Positions 2,208 to 26,740 of a stretch of DNA of 31,920 bases are shown here, one piece after another. The stretch covers positions 1 through 31,920 of IMG/VR virus record IMGVR_UViG_3300025652_000302, one strand, 5' to 3'. This DNA is from a virus. The translations under genes were made by a program, and so were the position numbers. Below the pieces are notes generated by a model. It did no database searches and was not told where the DNA came from. It was given only the letters and a program-made list of their open reading frames with translations. Numbering within the stretch: the first letter of the stretch is position 1; the number at the start of each line of letters is the position of its first letter.

Positions 2208-3097
2208 CAGAAGAGACTGCAGTAGTTGAAGAGACTGTGGAGGAAACTCCGCAACTATCAGAACAGGCACAACAATTCTTCAGGGACAAGGGTCTTCTCA
2301 AAGAAGAACCTGTGGAAGAAGTGGTTGAGGAACCTGTAGCAGAAGAGACTGAAGAAGCAGAACCTGAGAAGGAAGAACCCAAGGTTTCCAAAGCATTCCA
2401 AGAGGTTGCACGGAAGAAGAGGGAACTCTTTAAGAAGGAACAGGAGTTAAAGGATCAAAATGATGATCTGGGTAAGCTCAAGGAAGCAAGAAACTTAATT
2501 GAGCAAGGCAAGCATCTGGAAGCATCTGAGGTGTTAGGGTCCAATTATGAGTCCATGACAGATCAGGTACTTGGCAGATCCAGTGAGAAGACTGCACTGC
2601 AGAAGATGCAGGAAGAGATCTCACAATTGAAAAAAGAAAAGTTTGAATCAGATAAACAGAAACAAAAAGATCTTGCATCTCAAGAGGTGCAGTTTTATGT
2701 TTCTGAGTTGAAAAGTGTAGTTGAGGAATCAGAAAAGTATCCGTTGGTTTCAGCCTTTTGGGATGAAGCACAACAAAGCGTTCTGGATATTCAGAAGCAC
2801 TATGCCATGAATGGTGGGGAGACCCTCACCAATGAGGAAGTCTTGGATCAGGTTGAAAAGACTTACAAAGATTTCATGGATAATGCAGTTCAGAATAAAA
2901 AAGTGAGGTCTATCTATAAAATAGGTTCACCCTCCGAAAAGCCATTGGGTGAAGTCCAAAAAAGTCAGTCGAGGACACTTTCTAGTAAAGGAACATCCCG
3001 AATGAGGACTTCTGAAACCAAAACTGGACCTGTTTCCAAACATGAAGCACTGGAAAGAGCAGTTCAGGCATTCAGAGAGACCAAATCGGGAGTATAA
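2204..3097 (+). CDS. capsid scaffolding protein
   Basis: A 297-residue, highly charged protein expected to guide procapsid assembly and then leave the head. Residues 1-60 are dominated by Glu, Val and Pro (repeats such as EEPVEEVVEEPVAEE); residues 60-160 are Lys/Glu/Gln-rich and predicted coiled coil; the C-terminal 60 residues are basic with Ser and Thr, as expected for the capsid-binding end of a scaffold. It sits exactly between portal and major capsid, the usual scaffold slot, and overlaps the portal stop by ATGA. No protease domain is visible. Confidence 0.85.
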   Translation: MTEETAVVEETVEETPQLSEQAQQFFRDKGLLKEEPVEEVVEEPVAEETEEAEPEKEEPKVSKAFQEVARKKRELFKKEQELKDQNDDLGKLKEARNLIEQGKHLEASEVLGSNYESMTDQVLGRSSEKTALQKMQEEISQLKKEKFESDKQKQKDLASQEVQFYVSELKSVVEESEKYPLVSAFWDEAQQSVLDIQKHYAMNGGETLTNEEVLDQVEKTYKDFMDNAVQNKKVRSIYKIGSPSEKPLGEVQKSQSRTLSSKGTSRMRTSETKTGPVSKHEALERAVQAFRETKSGV

Positions 3098-3123
3098 AAT
3101 GACTTTCAATTTGGAGTATACCA

Positions 3124-4335
3124 ATGGCATCAGCCACAAATATGACGGCATGGGATAATGCCCTCAAGATTTACTATCAAGATAAACCTGTAATAGACAC
3201 GGTTTATAAGAATCATCCCTTTTTAAGCCTTGTCCCTAAGAATCCTAGATTCAAAGGGAAGTCAATGCCGATTCCTGTAATTTTCGGTAGACCTCAAGGG
3301 GTATCAGCAAACTTTGCAAATGCTCAAAGCAACGCAAGTGCAACTCAGGTAGCAGAATTCCTGCTCACCCGTAAGAAGCACTATGGAGTTGCAACTGTGG
3401 ACGGGGAGACACTCCTTGCATCACAGGGTAATGAGTATGCATTCTTGGATGCTGCAACCACAGAAATTGATCAAACTGCAAAATCTGTTGGAGATGCACT
3501 TTCCCGGCAACTGTACAGAACTTCTGATGCAGCAATCGGAAAGGTCAACAACTCATCCTTTGGTGTGACCACACTGGATCTTGTAACCGATTCTGATGCA
3601 CTCAACTTTGAGATCGGAATGGTTCTGCAAGTTTCTGCGACACAAACTGGAGGTTCTGTTCGTTCAGGAACTTTGGAAGTGTCTGCAGTCTCAAGAGATG
3701 CAACCTCCAACCAAGTAACGATGACAGGCAACCTGTCTGCAGGAATTTCTGCAATTGCTCAGAATGACTTTGTGTATGTTCAGGGCAACTATGATGCAGG
3801 AGTTTCAGGTCTTGCAGATTGGATTCCTGCTTCTGCTCCCGGTGGTACTGCATATTTTGGTCAGGACAGATCCAAAGATCCAAGTCGATTGGGAGGTCAG
3901 AGACAGGCTTTCTCAAGCACCCGTGAAGAGACCATCATTAACGGTCTTGGATTGGCAGCAAGAGAAGGTGGAGCACCTGATCACATCTTTGTTTCTTTCA
4001 CAGATTTCATTGCACTTGAAAAAGAACTTCAGTCTACAGTTCAACGTGAAGTTGATCCTGAAACTGGTTCTGGATACAGGTCACTGGAAATGTATGCACC
4101 TTATGGAATTGCTAAAATTATTCCTGATAAGGACTGCCCTGTGGGAGTTGCATACGCACTTCAGATGGATACATGGCAACTTGCTACCATCAACGAAACT
4201 GTCTCCATCATTGATGTAGATGGAAATCGGATGCTCCGTCAGTCTTCAGACGATGGAGTAGAAATCAGAGTTGGATTCTACGGACAACTTGGTTGTTCCG
4301 CTCCCGGTTTCAATTGCCGAATCGCCTTAGCATAA
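3124..4335 (+). CDS. major capsid protein
   Basis: A 403-residue protein in the size range of HK97-fold major capsid proteins. The N-terminus (MASATNMTAWDNALKIYY) resembles the N-arm of phage capsid proteins of the podovirus/P22-like type, followed by a beta-rich shell segment with the conserved-looking FLLTRKKHYGVATVDGE around residues 79-95. Residues about 150-220 look like an inserted beta domain. The C-terminal part (about 260-403) has alternating short strands and ends GCSAPGFNCRIALA. GGAG lies 7 nt before ATG, and the next gene has a strong AAAGGAG. Position after the scaffold and absence of another candidate support the call. Confidence 0.88.
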   Translation: MASATNMTAWDNALKIYYQDKPVIDTVYKNHPFLSLVPKNPRFKGKSMPIPVIFGRPQGVSANFANAQSNASATQVAEFLLTRKKHYGVATVDGETLLASQGNEYAFLDAATTEIDQTAKSVGDALSRQLYRTSDAAIGKVNNSSFGVTTLDLVTDSDALNFEIGMVLQVSATQTGGSVRSGTLEVSAVSRDATSNQVTMTGNLSAGISAIAQNDFVYVQGNYDAGVSGLADWIPASAPGGTAYFGQDRSKDPSRLGGQRQAFSSTREETIINGLGLAAREGGAPDHIFVSFTDFIALEKELQSTVQREVDPETGSGYRSLEMYAPYGIAKIIPDKDCPVGVAYALQMDTWQLATINETVSIIDVDGNRMLRQSSDDGVEIRVGFYGQLGCSAPGFNCRIALA

Positions 4336-20892: not shown

Positions 20893-21145
20893 ACTGTTTG
20901 AATCAATTGTAACCTGGGTAAATATTAAATTCGGAAAGGAACAACCTATGATACCTCCATTTTTGATGACTTATGCAGCCAACTTTATAAAAGATTTGGT
21001 GATGGATAAAGCACAATCTCTTGCTCAACCTCATATTGAGAAAGCACTGGAAAATGCTCCTAAAGAGTTAAGAGAAGCATTAGACAAAGCAGTGGATGAA
21101 GATTCCACACATGGTCATAAATCTTTATTGGATATGATTAAGTGA
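20885..21145 (+). CDS. small lysis-cassette protein with two good start sites
   Basis: An 86-residue protein, not recognised. Residues 1-21 (ending GKEQP) precede a second in-frame Met at 20948; from there a 65-residue form begins MIPPFLMTYAANFIKDLVMDKAQ and continues as an amphipathic acidic helix to HGHKSLLDMIK. Both ATGs have a good Shine-Dalgarno: AAGGA about 6 nt before 20885 and AAGGA 7 nt before 20948. The stretch between the starts (20908-20949) is almost identical to a segment inside a leftward gene at 28328-28369. Dual starts occur in holin/antiholin genes, but no membrane span is obvious here. The stop overlaps the next GTG. Confidence 0.6.
   Translation: MNKLFESIVTWVNIKFGKEQPMIPPFLMTYAANFIKDLVMDKAQSLAQPHIEKALENAPKELREALDKAVDEDSTHGHKSLLDMIK
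20908..20949 (+). repeat. 42-nt dispersed repeat, copy 1
   Basis: This segment matches 28328-28369 at 40 of 42 positions (differences at 20916 and 20932), in the same DNA orientation. Here it is read sense as part of the 86-residue protein and supplies the ribosome binding site for the internal ATG at 20948. Copy 2 lies antisense inside a leftward gene. Confidence 0.9.
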
Positions 21146-21630
21146 AGATCAGTAAAAACTTTTCTTTGGGTGAGTGTCTGAAGTCTGACACTGCCCAGAG
21201 GTTAGGTCTAAAGAATGAGATCACACAGGAAGGTCTCGTTGCTTTAACCACATTAGTGACCCAGTGTATGCAACCTCTGAGAGAACACTTTAAGAGTTCC
21301 ATCCGTTGCAATTCTGCGTGGAGATCCCCCCTAGTCTCAGAAGCAGTGGGTAGTTCGTCCCGGTCACAACATTGCAGAGGTGAAGCAATGGATTGGGAAA
21401 TTGTTGGTATCGATAACAAAGAATTGGCACAACAAGTCCCAAAGATTCTGGTTGAGTGGGATCAGATGATCCTTGAAATGTATGACGAGTCTGAGAAGAA
21501 TCCTGAGATCCGAATGGAGACAGGTTGGATTCACCTCTCCTACAATCGGATGGGTGAGAATCGTAAACAGATCCTCAGAGCATTCCGCAAGGGGAAAAAG
21601 ATAGTTTACGAACCTTGGGATCTGAGTTAG
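21142..21630 (+). CDS. M15-family peptidase (peptidoglycan endopeptidase)
   Basis: A 162-residue zinc peptidase of the Peptidase_M15_3 type, which cleaves peptidoglycan cross-links or D-Ala termini. Motifs: NFSLGECLKSDTAQRLGL (6-23), CMQPLREHF (42-50), SAWRSP (58-63), SQHCRGEAMDWE with zinc ligands His77 and Asp84, and GWIHLSY with the third ligand His131. There is no signal peptide, so it would need the holin-like proteins to reach the wall, unlike the anchored hydrolase at 19719. Start is GTG 21142, overlapping the TGA of the previous gene. It is the last gene before a strong terminator. Confidence 0.85.
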   Translation: MKISKNFSLGECLKSDTAQRLGLKNEITQEGLVALTTLVTQCMQPLREHFKSSIRCNSAWRSPLVSEAVGSSSRSQHCRGEAMDWEIVGIDNKELAQQVPKILVEWDQMILEMYDESEKNPEIRMETGWIHLSYNRMGENRKQILRAFRKGKKIVYEPWDLS

Positions 21631-21807: not shown

Positions 21808-21993
21808 TTGCAAGAAGAAAAAATAATTAAATCGTTGGTTGAGCAAATGTCTCGACTTACAGAGGAGGTTCACCAACTGCGTTTGGAATTTACCCCTGCT
21901 CTGAGACACACAGAAACCATGCAGAAGCAGCGATTAAGCGAGGACCAGATCAGATCCAGTATCAGGAAGGTGAGGAGTAAGGTGAATGCGTGA
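21808..21993 (+). CDS. small charged coiled-coil protein, first early gene
   Basis: A 61-residue protein, not recognised. It is helical and charged throughout (IIKSLVEQMSRLTEEVHQL around 6-24; basic end SIRKVRSKV). The start is TTG 21808, supported by AAAGGA with an 8-nt spacer and absence of an upstream ATG in frame. Its TGA overlaps the methyltransferase GTG (GTGA). Being first after the strong early promoter suggests a fast-acting role, for example in host takeover or DNA binding by the basic tail, but this is speculation. Confidence 0.6.
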   Translation: MQEEKIIKSLVEQMSRLTEEVHQLRLEFTPALRHTETMQKQRLSEDQIRSSIRKVRSKVNA

Positions 21994-23024
21994 TCTACAT
22001 TCTGGATCTTTTCAGTGGAATCGGAGGGTTCACACTCGCATCACAGTGGGTGGGTGGATACATGACTCTGGCATTCTGCGAAATCGAGGACTACTGCAGG
22101 AAGGTTCTGTCTCAGAACTTTCCCAACATTCCAATATTTACTGATGTCAGAGAACTCCACCCAACTGATGTTATTCCCAGAGATGGAGTCATCCACCTCA
22201 TCACAGCAGGTTTTCCATGCCAAGACCTGTCAGTTGCAGGAAACCAAAAAGGTATTCAAGCAGACAGGTCAGGTCTCTTCTTCCAGATCCTCAGACTCAG
22301 TGATGAGTTCTATGCCTATAGCAGAGTTAGACCTGCGTTGCTCCTGGAGAACGTCCCAAACCTGCTTACTGGTAACGGGGGAGATTGGGCAAGAACCGTT
22401 TACTCAGAACTGGCCGTCAGAGGGTATCGTTGCGAGTGGAAAATTATATCCGCAAGTGATGTGGGAGCACCTCATCTCCGCAAACGATGGTGGTGTATCG
22501 CATACCTACCCTACTCCAAGAGCTTGCACGGCAATGTCAGCAACAATCACTCCAGAGTCCTCATGGGAGGACAATCAATTCCCGAATCTGGAGACCGTGG
22601 TAGGGAGGATGACATGGCCCACACCAAACGCATGGGATGGAGCAAGGGGTCCGTTGAGCAAGGAGAAGATGGAGGAGGGGGTACACCAGATCACACTGGT
22701 GACTGCAGTGAAGCACTTCCCAACAACTACCGCAAGGGATTGGAAAGACAGTGGTCCCAACACCAATTACCAGAAAGCAAAAGAAAAACACCGTCTGGCA
22801 GGATTCACGGGAGCAGGTCTGTCACCAGATTGGGTGGAGCACTACCTGATGGGCTATCCCCGTGGATGGACGAACCTGCAGACCTCCCCAGAGTGACTCA
22901 TGAGAAGAAGTACCGAAAACAAAGACTCATGTCTCTGGGGAACTCAATTGTGCCAAGGGTTGCAGTGATACCACTCAGACGTTTTAAAGAGATTTATGAA
23001 AGCAATAAACCTGACTGCATCTGA
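21990..23024 (+). CDS. DNA (cytosine-C5) methyltransferase
   Basis: A 344-residue enzyme that transfers a methyl group from SAM to cytosine C5, probably shielding phage DNA from host restriction. Motif I is LDLFSGIGGF (5-14), motif IV GFPCQDLS (74-81, catalytic Cys77), motif VI LENV (119-122), motif VIII-like HLRKRWW (162-168), and motif X LGNSIVPRVA (316-325). Residues about 180-310, the target-recognition region, are unusually hydrophilic and Gly/Arg/Ser-rich, because the same DNA also carries a long ORF in the +1 frame (22144-22896). Start is GTG overlapping the upstream TGA. The end overlaps the nuclease gene by 29 nt. No cognate restriction enzyme is evident, though a VRR-NUC nuclease follows. 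Confidence 0.9.
   Translation: MIYILDLFSGIGGFTLASQWVGGYMTLAFCEIEDYCRKVLSQNFPNIPIFTDVRELHPTDVIPRDGVIHLITAGFPCQDLSVAGNQKGIQADRSGLFFQILRLSDEFYAYSRVRPALLLENVPNLLTGNGGDWARTVYSELAVRGYRCEWKIISASDVGAPHLRKRWWCIAYLPYSKSLHGNVSNNHSRVLMGGQSIPESGDRGREDDMAHTKRMGWSKGSVEQGEDGGGGTPDHTGDCSEALPNNYRKGLERQWSQHQLPESKRKTPSGRIHGSRSVTRLGGALPDGLSPWMDEPADLPRVTHEKKYRKQRLMSLGNSIVPRVAVIPLRRFKEIYESNKPDCI
22144..22896 (+). CDS. overlapping +1-frame ORF nested in the methyltransferase gene (PTPxA protein)
   Basis: A 250-codon ORF wholly inside the cytosine methyltransferase gene. Its translation is not random: FHAKTCQLQE (24-33), SWRTSQTCLL (67-76), NWPSEGIVASGKLYP (89-103), three PTPxA-like blocks (TYPTPRACTA 121-130, TWPTPNAWDGARG 158-168 with flank, HFPTTTARDWKDSG 191-204), and LSPDWVEHYLMGYPRGWTNL (226-245). 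I know these motifs from many phage proteins and from C-terminal regions of phage cytosine methyltransferases. Each maps onto a methyltransferase motif in the other frame: FHAKTCQ lies on GFPCQ, SWRTSQ on LENVPN. No clear Shine-Dalgarno precedes ATG 22144, so translation may use another start, coupling or frameshifting. Function unknown. Confidence 0.55.
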   Translation: MSENSTQLMLFPEMESSTSSQQVFHAKTCQLQETKKVFKQTGQVSSSRSSDSVMSSMPIAELDLRCSWRTSQTCLLVTGEIGQEPFTQNWPSEGIVASGKLYPQVMWEHLISANDGGVSHTYPTPRACTAMSATITPESSWEDNQFPNLETVVGRMTWPTPNAWDGARGPLSKEKMEEGVHQITLVTAVKHFPTTTARDWKDSGPNTNYQKAKEKHRLAGFTGAGLSPDWVEHYLMGYPRGWTNLQTSPE

Positions 23025-23406
23025 AGCAAACATTCAACAATCCATCATGAACTGGGGTGAATGGCAGAAACAGAATGGGATTGGGATGTTCAGAATCAAT
23101 GTCATTGGAGTTCCAGTGGGAGAAGGAAAGTTCAGACCCTCACCTAATGTGGGAATGGCAGACATATATATGAGTGTTCAAACAGAGGGTATCTCCATAG
23201 GTGTGTGGTTAGAAGTCAAGAAGCATGGAGGAAAACAGTCCAAAACACAGAAGGAATTTGAGAAGAAAGTAGTTGAGCAGAGTGGATGGTATTTTATCGT
23301 CAAATCCATTGAGGACGTTGAAGAGGTGATCAAAATAATCCGTGAAGACACTTGGAAGAAGATCAATAAATTACGCAATGAGTTAAACGAATACGAGACA
23401 GGCTAA
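22996..23406 (+). CDS. VRR-NUC domain nuclease
   Basis: A 136-residue PD-(D/E)XK nuclease of the VRR-NUC type. The core is GMADI with Asp56, then WLEVKKHGGKQSKTQKEF with Glu73 and Lys75 of the E-x-K motif and the conserved Gln81/Gln85 region, followed by SGWYFIVKS and a helical tail. Stand-alone phage VRR-NUC proteins are thought to act on branched DNA such as Holliday junctions, or in end processing. AGAG lies 4 nt before ATG, and the start overlaps the methyltransferase end. Pairing with a methyltransferase could also suggest a modification-linked nuclease, but resolvase is more usual for this size. Confidence 0.8.
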   Translation: MKAINLTASEANIQQSIMNWGEWQKQNGIGMFRINVIGVPVGEGKFRPSPNVGMADIYMSVQTEGISIGVWLEVKKHGGKQSKTQKEFEKKVVEQSGWYFIVKSIEDVEEVIKIIREDTWKKINKLRNELNEYETG

Positions 23407-24176: not shown

Positions 24177-24528
24177 CCCTAAGAACAGACTGAAATTCCT
24201 GCGATTCAGTCACTTCTATCATTACAAGAGACCCTCTGGGTTCACTGAGAAAATTCCATACAACTTATATCAGTGTGAGTGTGGGACCCAGAAAGTTATT
24301 AGAGAGTCAAGTGTGCTCAATCACAGATCTAAGTCTGCATGGAGTTGTGGCTGTCTAAGGAGAGATAACATGAAGGACATTCATTCCAAGGGACTGAACA
24401 GACATGGAGGAAATAAGAACTGTGAGGGTAGAGGTGCAACAAACAAGGGGAAGATCAGGATCAAAGAAAATGGCAGAAACAGGTATGTGACCATGCAGGA
24501 ATTAACAGATATGTATTACGGACTATGA
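24169..24528 (+). CDS. zinc-finger protein related to homing-endonuclease-associated domains
   Basis: A 119-residue basic protein. Residues 34-62 contain YQCECGTQKVIRESSVLNH, then SCGCLRRDNM, the C-x-CG ... SCGC finger found in phage HNH/AP2-type mobile endonucleases and stand-alone relatives. The C-terminal part is Lys/Arg/Asn-rich (RGATNKGKIRIKENGRNRY) and ends with a short helical motif like those that bind DNA in such proteins. No HNH catalytic motif is visible, so it is probably a DNA-binding remnant or accessory. A 21-nt repeat lies at its start. Confidence 0.6.
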   Translation: MKHPKNRLKFLRFSHFYHYKRPSGFTEKIPYNLYQCECGTQKVIRESSVLNHRSKSAWSCGCLRRDNMKDIHSKGLNRHGGNKNCEGRGATNKGKIRIKENGRNRYVTMQELTDMYYGL

Positions 24529-25412
24529 ACATCACCAACGAACTCAACCTGCCAGAACCACTGGTGGATGCAATCAGAAACGATGGGTACACCAAGGGAG
24601 ATGCAGATTTCTCTATCACTGGTCTGATGTCTCCACCCTACCAGAGAAAACTGATGGGGGAGTATGGAGGAAAGATCACTGAGGATGCTGCAGACAGGAT
24701 CTGGAGTCTCTTTGGTCAGGCAATCCATTCCATTCTGGAGAGAGCAGGAGAGTCAGACACAGACTATGAACTGGAGAGAAGATTCTTTTCAGACTGTCTG
24801 GGAAAGAGAATCTCAGGACAGGTGGATGTGTATCACCCACAGGATTCATTGATTCAGGATTACAAGACTACCTCTGTGTGGTCAGTTTTGGATGAAGGAT
24901 ACAAAGCAGATTGGGAGAGACAGTTGAATGGGTATGCGTGGCTGGCAAGATCCAACGGAATCAAAGTCAAACGATTGGAAGTCGTAGCGATTCTAAGGGA
25001 TTGGTCACGGATGGAGAGGATGAGGAGAGGGAATGGATACCCAACTCATCCAGTAGTGATCAGAGAGATCCCGGTGTGGGGTGAGGAGATAGCACAGGAC
25101 TACATTGAGACCCGTGTTCAACTCCACAATAACCCTGATCCTCTTGTCTGCACTCCCAAGGATAAGTGGGAGAAACCCACAACTTATGCAGTGAAAAAGG
25201 AAGGAAGCAAGAGAGCAGTCAGAGTGTACGAGACCATGAGTGAAGCAGAAGCACATATAGAGAAGCATGAGCAGGTCTTGGAGGGACCAAGTGAACACAA
25301 ACTTTTTATTGAGACACGCAAAGGTGAAGCAGTGAGGTGTCTCAGTTACTGTCCTGCCAAATCATTCTGCAATGAAGCAGGAAAGATGGAGCAGGAACCA
25401 ATTCCATTTTGA
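24525..25412 (+). CDS. RecB/Cas4-like PD-(D/E)XK exonuclease
   Basis: A 295-residue nuclease. Features: GQAIHSILE (64-72, the GxxxH helix with His68), ISGQVDVY with Asp101, LIQDYKTTSVW with Asp112 and Lys114 of the D-x-K motif, then WERQLNGYAWL (the QxxxY helix of RecB nucleases). At the C-terminus Cys272-x3-Cys276-x5-Cys282, with Cys91 upstream, has the spacing type of the Fe-S cluster in Cas4/AddB nucleases. It would degrade or resect DNA ends in recombination or replication. ATG 24525 overlaps the preceding TGA. The next gene encodes an SSB-like protein, a natural partner. Confidence 0.8.
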   Translation: MNITNELNLPEPLVDAIRNDGYTKGDADFSITGLMSPPYQRKLMGEYGGKITEDAADRIWSLFGQAIHSILERAGESDTDYELERRFFSDCLGKRISGQVDVYHPQDSLIQDYKTTSVWSVLDEGYKADWERQLNGYAWLARSNGIKVKRLEVVAILRDWSRMERMRRGNGYPTHPVVIREIPVWGEEIAQDYIETRVQLHNNPDPLVCTPKDKWEKPTTYAVKKEGSKRAVRVYETMSEAEAHIEKHEQVLEGPSEHKLFIETRKGEAVRCLSYCPAKSFCNEAGKMEQEPIPF

Positions 25413-25969: not shown

Positions 25970-26740
25970 ATGTCCAATCACATGGAAGTGATTAAGACAG
26001 CACTAACAGACCCTGAGTTAACTAAAAACGAACTTAGGGTCTTACTGTGCATCGTCTTTTTCAGCACAAAAGAAAAGAAGAGAATACTAAGAAGTTTCTT
26101 ATCAGATTCACTCAAAATTGATGCTAACCGTATCTCTAAAATCACATCAGATTTGCAGAGAAAAGGTTATATAAACAAGGTCAATGTAAAGGGTGTCATC
26201 GAGTACGAGCAAACTTACCAAAACGGTAATACTTACCAAAACGGTAATACTTACCAAAACGGTAAGCCCAAACCCCTTACCGAATCTGTAAGTACTTACC
26301 AAAACGGTAATATCACGACACTATATAATAAAACTAATACAGTATACTCTATACACAATACAGATAGTCCTGCAGAAGATCCTGCCCCACCCCCCTATGC
26401 TGAGATCATCCGTGATTTGAATCTTGTCACGAAAAAACGATTTTCACATCAGACAGAGAAAACCAGAGTAAGTATCAAAGCAAGGTTCAGTGACGGGTTT
26501 ACTTTAGAAGACTTCAAACATGTTCACCGTGTCAAATCAGAACAGTGGTTAAACAGTGACATGGAAAAATATCTTCGTCCTGCAACTCTGTATGGAAATA
26601 AATTTGAGAATTATTTGAATGAAAGACTTAAATCTGAAATTGAAAAAAGTGCAGAAGAAGCAAAGATAAATGCACCTGAGACTCAGGAAGCAATTGATTA
26701 TCTCAAGGTGCTAACTGGAAACCACAAGCAACTGAACTGA
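25970..26740 (+). CDS. lambda-O-like replication initiator with internal iterons
   Basis: A 256-residue protein in two domains. Residues 10-75 form a winged-helix-like DNA-binding domain (LTKNELRVLLCIVFF, ISKITSDLQRKGYI). Residues about 143-220 match the phage Phg_2220_C domain (IIRDLNLVTKKRFSHQTEK, DFKHVHRVKSEQWLNSDMEKYLRP, LYGNKFENYLNE) found in phage replication proteins. The linker between (residues 82-114) is TYQNGN repeats, produced by DNA iterons. Binding its own iterons to open DNA, as lambda O does, is the natural model. GGAG precedes ATG by about 8 nt. A lambda-P-like gene follows with TGATG overlap. Confidence 0.75.
   Translation: MSNHMEVIKTALTDPELTKNELRVLLCIVFFSTKEKKRILRSFLSDSLKIDANRISKITSDLQRKGYINKVNVKGVIEYEQTYQNGNTYQNGNTYQNGKPKPLTESVSTYQNGNITTLYNKTNTVYSIHNTDSPAEDPAPPPYAEIIRDLNLVTKKRFSHQTEKTRVSIKARFSDGFTLEDFKHVHRVKSEQWLNSDMEKYLRPATLYGNKFENYLNERLKSEIEKSAEEAKINAPETQEAIDYLKVLTGNHKQLN
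26213..26311 (+). repeat. iteron array: probable replication origin inside the initiator gene
   Basis: ACTTACCAAAACGGTAAT occurs at 26213, 26231, 26249 (last base G) and 26294, with a degenerate copy at 26276-26292. Each holds a dyad TTACC-N5-GGTAA. The first three are exactly 18 bp apart. AT-rich DNA follows at about 26311-26365 (for example ACTATATAATAAAACTAAT), suited to unwinding. The arrangement mirrors the lambda origin inside gene O. Confidence 0.8.

Follow-up and report, generated by a model that had tools for sequence, protein, structure and literature searches.

A cytosine methyltransferase gene of this virus can be read in two frames, and the locus raises the question of whether the second reading is a gene in its own right and what its product might contribute. 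Long overlapping genes on the same strand are few in prokaryotes, and those reported are disputed. In the window (i.e. the entire viral record, 31,920 bases), the frame-0 gene, here designated alpha, is located at 21990..23024 (+ strand, GTG start, 344 aa), while the nested gene, designated beta, is located at 22144..22896 (+ strand, ATG start, 250 aa), one base ahead of alpha and entirely within it, in a +1 frame that is open from 22066. These re-derived coordinates agree with the original prediction, which had described both frames as long and had placed the +1 peptides FHAKTCQ (22213-22233) and SWRTSQ (22342-22359) exactly over GFPCQDLS (22209-22232) and LENVPNL (22344-22364), respectively; the three PTP-like blocks, ARDWKD and WVEHYLMGYPRGW are all present in the +1 frame as well. 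The locus probably specifies a two-polypeptide C5-cytosine DNA methyltransferase, in which a catalytic alpha and a nested beta are derived from one stretch of DNA.

Profile searches assigned alpha to PF00145 (E 1.7e-39), TIGR00675 and PHROG 363 (phrog_363; E 1.2e-55), and the alpha profile matched M.HhaI across motifs I-VIII. Motifs, named according to the established C5-MTase nomenclature and called from the sequence by regular expressions, were identified on the + strand as motif I (LDLFSGIGGF, SAM binding, 22002..22031), motif IV (GFPCQDLS, with the catalytic Cys, 22209..22232), motif VI (LENVPNL, 22344..22364), motif VIII (APHLRKRWW, 22467..22493) and motif X (LGNSIVPRVA, 22935..22964), so that PF00145 membership of alpha is supported by motifs I, IV (PCQ), VI (ENV), VIII and X and by a profile score above the cut-off. 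At the place of motif X, the alpha C-terminus produced a profile-profile match to a single-chain enzyme that is weak by itself. Motif IX was not recognised in the alpha chain of the window, being present instead in beta at 22816-22875.

Other genes in the window encode an SU10-type portal protein (363-2207), a peptidase M15 that is likely an endolysin (21142-21630), a PD-(D/E)XK nuclease (24525-25412) and a member of the phage C-terminus family Phg_2220_C (25970-26740). A small ORF (22996-23406) overlaps the 3' end of alpha; its RINVIGVP..ADI..WLEVKK...Q pattern resembles, by eye, a VRR-NUC-type nuclease, and no Pfam match was obtained for it at 1e-3.

No Pfam or NCBIfam match was found for beta, which matches PHROG 1008 (phrog_1008) across most of its length in a profile search (E 3.1e-16). 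When both translations were searched, homologues as well as this PHROG 1008 match (E 3e-16) were retrieved for the +1 reading. From its N-terminus, beta encompasses QLMLF (22162..22176, +), the counterpart of QLTLF in many relatives, followed by an N-domain consisting of the SWRTSQ block and the WPSEGIVASGKLYPQ hairpin (22342..22455, +), which overlaps alpha motifs VI-VIII. Three PTP cassettes follow on the + strand, i.e. cassette 1 (YPTPRACTAMSATITPESSWEDNQFPNLETVVGRMT, 22507..22614), cassette 2 (WPTPNAWDGARGPLSKEKMEEGVHQITLVTAVKH, 22615..22716) and cassette 3 (FPTTTARDWKDSGPNTNYQKAKEKHRLAGFTG, 22717..22812), and downstream of these three blocks sits motif IX (LSPDWVEHYLMGYPRGWT), assigned at 22816..22875 (+; GLSPDWVEHYLMGYPRGWTN) by a profile match to the motif IX of single-chain enzymes and by a +1 substitution spectrum. 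Beta is accordingly proposed as a putative target-recognition and motif IX subunit. No PDB match was detected for beta by profile search, nor by a structure model of beta alone, which is of low confidence (pLDDT 60) and shows two short strands in the N-domain.

Hundreds of phages and prophages have retained the nested double reading. In tblastn searches with the beta of the window, relatives were found in phages of Acinetobacter, Microcystis, Acidovorax, Gordonia and the human gut, nested over a methyltransferase gene where examined, while a search with a consensus beta matched 513 phage records and 14 plasmids. Beta is not universal among C5-MTases, as alpha matches 1,372 phage records and beta 513 at the thresholds used. 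In the set of loci started from beta, the relative frame was +1 in 97 of 98 viral loci (G+C 0.38 to 0.70), although these and the following loci are related to each other and their counts are therefore not independent events. An alpha-only search, from which the 80 viral loci most similar to the window's own family were kept without regard to beta, returned the beta family in 80/80, with motif IX in +1 in 72, partial in five, in frame 0 in two and in the third frame in one. Among loci from bacterial genomes, motif IX was nested in +1 in 50 and in frame 0 in three, and 17 of 299 genomes drawn from one phylum were shown to contain a match. The SWKTSQ...PTPTA pattern, which had been attributed to many phage proteins when the double reading was proposed as possibly old and widely kept, is real, and these viral, phage-record and bacterial-locus searches bear out both the age and the breadth of the double reading.

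Several of these loci have peculiarities of their own. Five nested-gene matches of equal score occur in one Roseovarius chromosome (OX638333.1; L207-L211), suggesting several near-identical prophages. A tandem pair of beta genes is present within one locus in L087 (737-1933) and L205 (2382-4282), the former consisting of a first nested alpha/beta pair followed by a second such pair. The prophage L325 of E. coli PT62 carries two annotated cytosine methyltransferase genes (43-1029 and 3001-3738) that are 2 kb apart, the second of which underlies the match to a nested gene of Salmonella phage S9-5.

Such a pattern could arise if the +1 ORF were an untranslated shadow, conserved alpha codons forcing a similar +1 reading wherever alpha is conserved. 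FHAKTCQ and SWRTSQ are indeed partly forced by GFPCQDLS and LENVPN, shuffled genes still reach 33-37 bits, and a standalone beta apart from alpha was not recognised among the loci examined, nearly all of which overlap alpha. To separate forced from unforced similarity, synonymous codons were permuted such that the alpha protein was kept identical. For the window, shuffled frame-0 sequences contained a mean of 6.1 stops in +1, and 0 of 100 were stop-free. Over 138 loci, 4.7 stops per beta (649 in total) were predicted and none was observed, a zero that is partly by construction since ORFs were taken from stop to stop; the frequent +1 stops by which the original prediction proposed to recognise a chance shadow were, to that extent, not seen in the homologous loci. 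In loci outside the training set, real betas scored a mean of 127 bits, compared with 33 bits for shuffled ones. The N-part profile of beta scored 71.9 bits against 36.5 (exceeding all 20 shuffles in 114 of 117 loci), and the C-part profile 64.7 bits against 3.1. When whole clusters were held out, the beta score in the VIII-IX region was 67.1 against 7.9 and exceeded all shuffles in 31/31, whereas the converse test gave 34.5 against 19.6 and 14/31 for alpha, indicating that alpha is only weakly constrained there.

The frame under selection was further resolved along the gene with 28 independent pairs of close relatives, in which changes were counted separately for each codon position of frame 0. 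Upstream of beta, values for positions 1, 2 and 3 were 0.11, 0.07 and 0.414 (first/third ratio 0.27), and in the catalytic overlap (IV-VIII) they were 0.16, 0.08 and 0.288 (ratio 0.56). In the PTP blocks, the corresponding values were 0.36, 0.16 and 0.137 (ratio 2.65), and in motif IX 0.21, 0.12 and 0.085 (ratio 2.48), before returning to 0.14, 0.10 and 0.404 (ratio 0.35) downstream of beta. Since the first codon positions of alpha are the third positions of beta, the constrained frame switches to +1 after motif VIII and back before motif X. Both frames are thus under selection, and the excess conservation at synonymous sites that a kept double reading should leave was found both in codon choice and in third positions where beta overlaps. 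The case is weaker for the beta N-domain, because the pattern in the catalytic overlap is mainly that of alpha. The original prediction had listed, as an alternative to the double reading, a target-recognition region that moved frame; a change of frame is what the spectra show, with motif IX and the PTP blocks constrained in +1 and motifs I-VIII and X in frame 0, yet it does not oppose the double reading, the two being halves of one picture. The shadow reading, contradicted by both the shuffles and the VIII-IX substitution spectrum of the +1 type, was rejected as exceedingly improbable; the +1 ORF is a genuine gene.

The PTP cassettes provide a separate view of the +1 frame. Between the hairpin and motif IX, 92 of 93 betas contain one to six PTP blocks, averaging 2.3 against an expected 0.09, with a median spacing of 36 residues. 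Clustering was performed on cassette tails, since single linkage of whole cassettes merged nearly all of them via the shared PTP head, and it grouped 204 of 303 blocks into at least 46 families. These families occur at differing positions and in up to eight alpha clusters, and 100 ordered cassette architectures were observed among 139 loci. Distant copies of cassettes share 53% identity in +1 and 30% in either of the two remaining frames, a difference which a shadow would not be expected to leave. The three cassettes of the window are 48-76% identical to those of distant loci in +1, compared with 14-38% in frame 0. Specifically, cassette 1, whose family is present in 20 loci of eight alpha clusters, is 54-69% identical in +1 and 20-34% in frame 0 to four distant loci; cassette 2 shows 62-68% and 24-38%, respectively, against L015, L081 and L175; and cassette 3 shows 48-76% and 14-31% against L012, L038, L053 and L062, and is not found in the close relative L091. 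The cassette order is 0-9-3 in the window and u-0-9 in L091, its nearest relative, i.e. one cassette gained upstream and one lost downstream. PTP cassettes recombine. They are most likely target-recognition modules, a role suggested by their position and modularity because beta folds with low confidence and the PTP region is predicted to be disordered.

A change of constrained frame exactly after motif VIII would also be produced by a single enzyme made through a programmed frameshift, with ribosomes entering +1 to translate motif IX together with the PTP blocks and, in most loci, returning to frame 0 for motif X. Relatives in which both motif IX and motif X lie in +1 (L004, L074, L083 and L180), or in which all motifs lie in frame 0 (29 single chains), agree with such a scheme. 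However, the N-part of beta precedes the switch and is better conserved than shuffles predict, and the arrangement of the window would require two shifts. Signals for independent initiation are likewise maintained: an open +1 ATG located five or more codons before the motif IV image is present in 131 of 147 loci, compared with 59 in shuffles (maximum 68), Shine-Dalgarno sites of at least five bases precede it in 33 loci against 4.3 (maximum 9), and sites of 6 nt in 18 loci against 0.7 (maximum 4). This enrichment, which a shadow ORF would not display either, favours independent initiation of beta over frameshifting, which we consider unlikely. The frameshifted fusion protein, also raised in the original prediction, is the least likely version of the double reading, given that beta has start codons and Shine-Dalgarno sites of its own that are kept across loci. 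The locus thereby shows the features of a same-strand overlapping pair under dual selection (absence of stops, conservation in both frames and initiation signals), the weakest of these being the Shine-Dalgarno of the window itself, as inspection of the sequence revealed no clear one at the beta ATG (22144).

Even with a start codon of its own, beta could encode a protein of unrelated function, such as a regulator or the partner of a nuclease, whose gene merely overlaps that of the methyltransferase. An N-domain (SWxTSQ and hairpin) without a known fold and a QLTLF peptide suggestive of another interaction would suit such a protein. Against this, the most conserved stretch of beta, GGxLNPxWVEWLMGFPxGWTDL, is motif IX, which is not recognised in the alpha of the window and which, in natural single chains, lies in frame with alpha. 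In a profile match, beta motif IX corresponds to residues 313-333 of a single-chain actinophage enzyme (97.4%, E 1.2e-11), of which the alpha profile covers residues 1-182 (100%, E 2e-61), with a weak second alpha-profile match at motif X. The model of this single chain (pLDDT 71) is confident save for the PTP region, which is predicted to be disordered; its top match among solved structures is M.HhaI (E 2.8e-14), and motif IX is in place in this M.HhaI-like model. A separate job for beta is, on this evidence, very unlikely.

The whole motif set is conserved among relatives but is apportioned differently between the frames, which would be expected of parts that come together in a single enzyme. 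Ritam007 and 29 relatives carry motifs IX and X in frame 0 as a single chain, Geodirt carries both in +1, and L116, L136 and L222 have PTP blocks in +1 with IX and X in frame 0. Eagle-type phages (L180) divide the enzyme between two overlapping ORFs, the first with motifs I-VIII and the second with IX and X; both are annotated as DNA methylase. In four single chains of the actinophage type (L271, L287, L268 and L301), a +1 ORF that includes the SW block and the hairpin is retained over ~130-190 codons although motif IX is in frame 0, and a short beta may still be made. In the prophage copies L226 and L246, alpha runs in frame into motif IX and lacks X; these may be deletions or decaying copies.

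From this anatomy and from precedent, we infer that alpha and beta assemble into one active enzyme. Alpha, read in frame 0, would supply motifs I-VIII and X, and beta, initiated at its own start codon within alpha, would add its N-terminal domain, an array of ~36-residue PTP cassettes and motif IX, thereby completing the small domain. Beta would determine which DNA sequences are methylated, and methylation would probably shield the phage DNA from host restriction.

The beta N-terminus, which often starts M-(x)n-EQLTLF-xxD, provides a further lead. QL[SD]LF is a bacterial sliding-clamp-binding motif, a pentapeptide that QLMLF and QLTLF of beta presumably resemble. QLxLF was detected in 24 of 147 loci (QLMLF in the window), compared with 0.53 expected from synonymous shuffles (maximum 3 in 200), and these 24 loci represent 16 clusters at 60% and seven clusters at 50% alpha identity. 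A clamp-binding role for QLxLF, suggested by the peptide itself, is a lead rather than a finding. More speculatively, and with considerable doubt on our part, beta may be a widespread modular specificity subunit in the +1 frame of a phage catalytic gene, its ~36-residue cassettes being swapped while alpha stays open and its QLTLF docking the enzyme on the host replication clamp, such that new phage DNA would be methylated during copying. DNMT1, acting via PCNA, is a precedent for methylation during copying. If real, the motif would tie phage methylation to replication.

The overlap is common to very distant phages and prophages, and the frame of selection can be measured along the gene. By implication, many annotated phage cytosine methyltransferases may be half enzymes whose specificity part was missed, which would account for cases in which heterologous expression failed or specificity was wrongly assigned. 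The cassettes, in turn, may offer a readable recognition code that could be matched to methylomes.

Among characterised systems, M.EcoHK31I has a similar layout, its small ORF lying within the large one and being read in a different frame. Its large polypeptide carries motifs I-VIII and X, and motif IX is in the small polypeptide only (PMC3404938, citing Lee et al. 1995), which is the same split as that between alpha and beta. In contrast, the predicted TRD of M.EcoHK31I was placed in its large subunit (PMC3404938), whereas the VIII-IX region of the window is constrained in beta (+1); moreover, M.EcoHK31I is a bacterial R-M enzyme rather than a phage family, and is likened here by motif layout, not by sequence. 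A DNA search of E. coli for an M.EcoHK31I-like locus yielded prophage copies only, in four genomes. M.AquI is a two-polypeptide C5-MTase divided between motifs VIII and IX (PMC3404938), and this division is also that of the Eagle-type phages (L180), whereas the window keeps X in alpha and its beta is fully nested. PHROG 1008, of which the beta of the window is a member by profile, is labelled 'DNA methyltransferase' with no role, frame or nesting given. The same nested ORF was annotated by the depositors of Paenibacillus phage Shelly as 'g55 internal gene' (SHELLY_56, KP296795), as hypothetical only and with no function or breadth given. In the literature searched, no account of a gene nested within a phage methyltransferase gene was found, an absence that is not proof of its being unknown. 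Two-polypeptide C5-MTases are already known; new here, as far as that search goes, are how widespread and how old the nesting is in phages, and the exchangeable cassette array in an alternative frame. In the M.SPRI-type phage C5-MTases, several adjacent target-recognition modules reportedly lie between motifs VIII and IX, and the window family similarly carries an array of a variable number of adjacent exchangeable modules in this position. Modules and catalytic motifs occur together in one chain only in the actinophage-type relatives and not in the window; the multispecific M.SPRI-type enzymes are single chains in one frame, whereas the array described here resides in a nested +1 gene.
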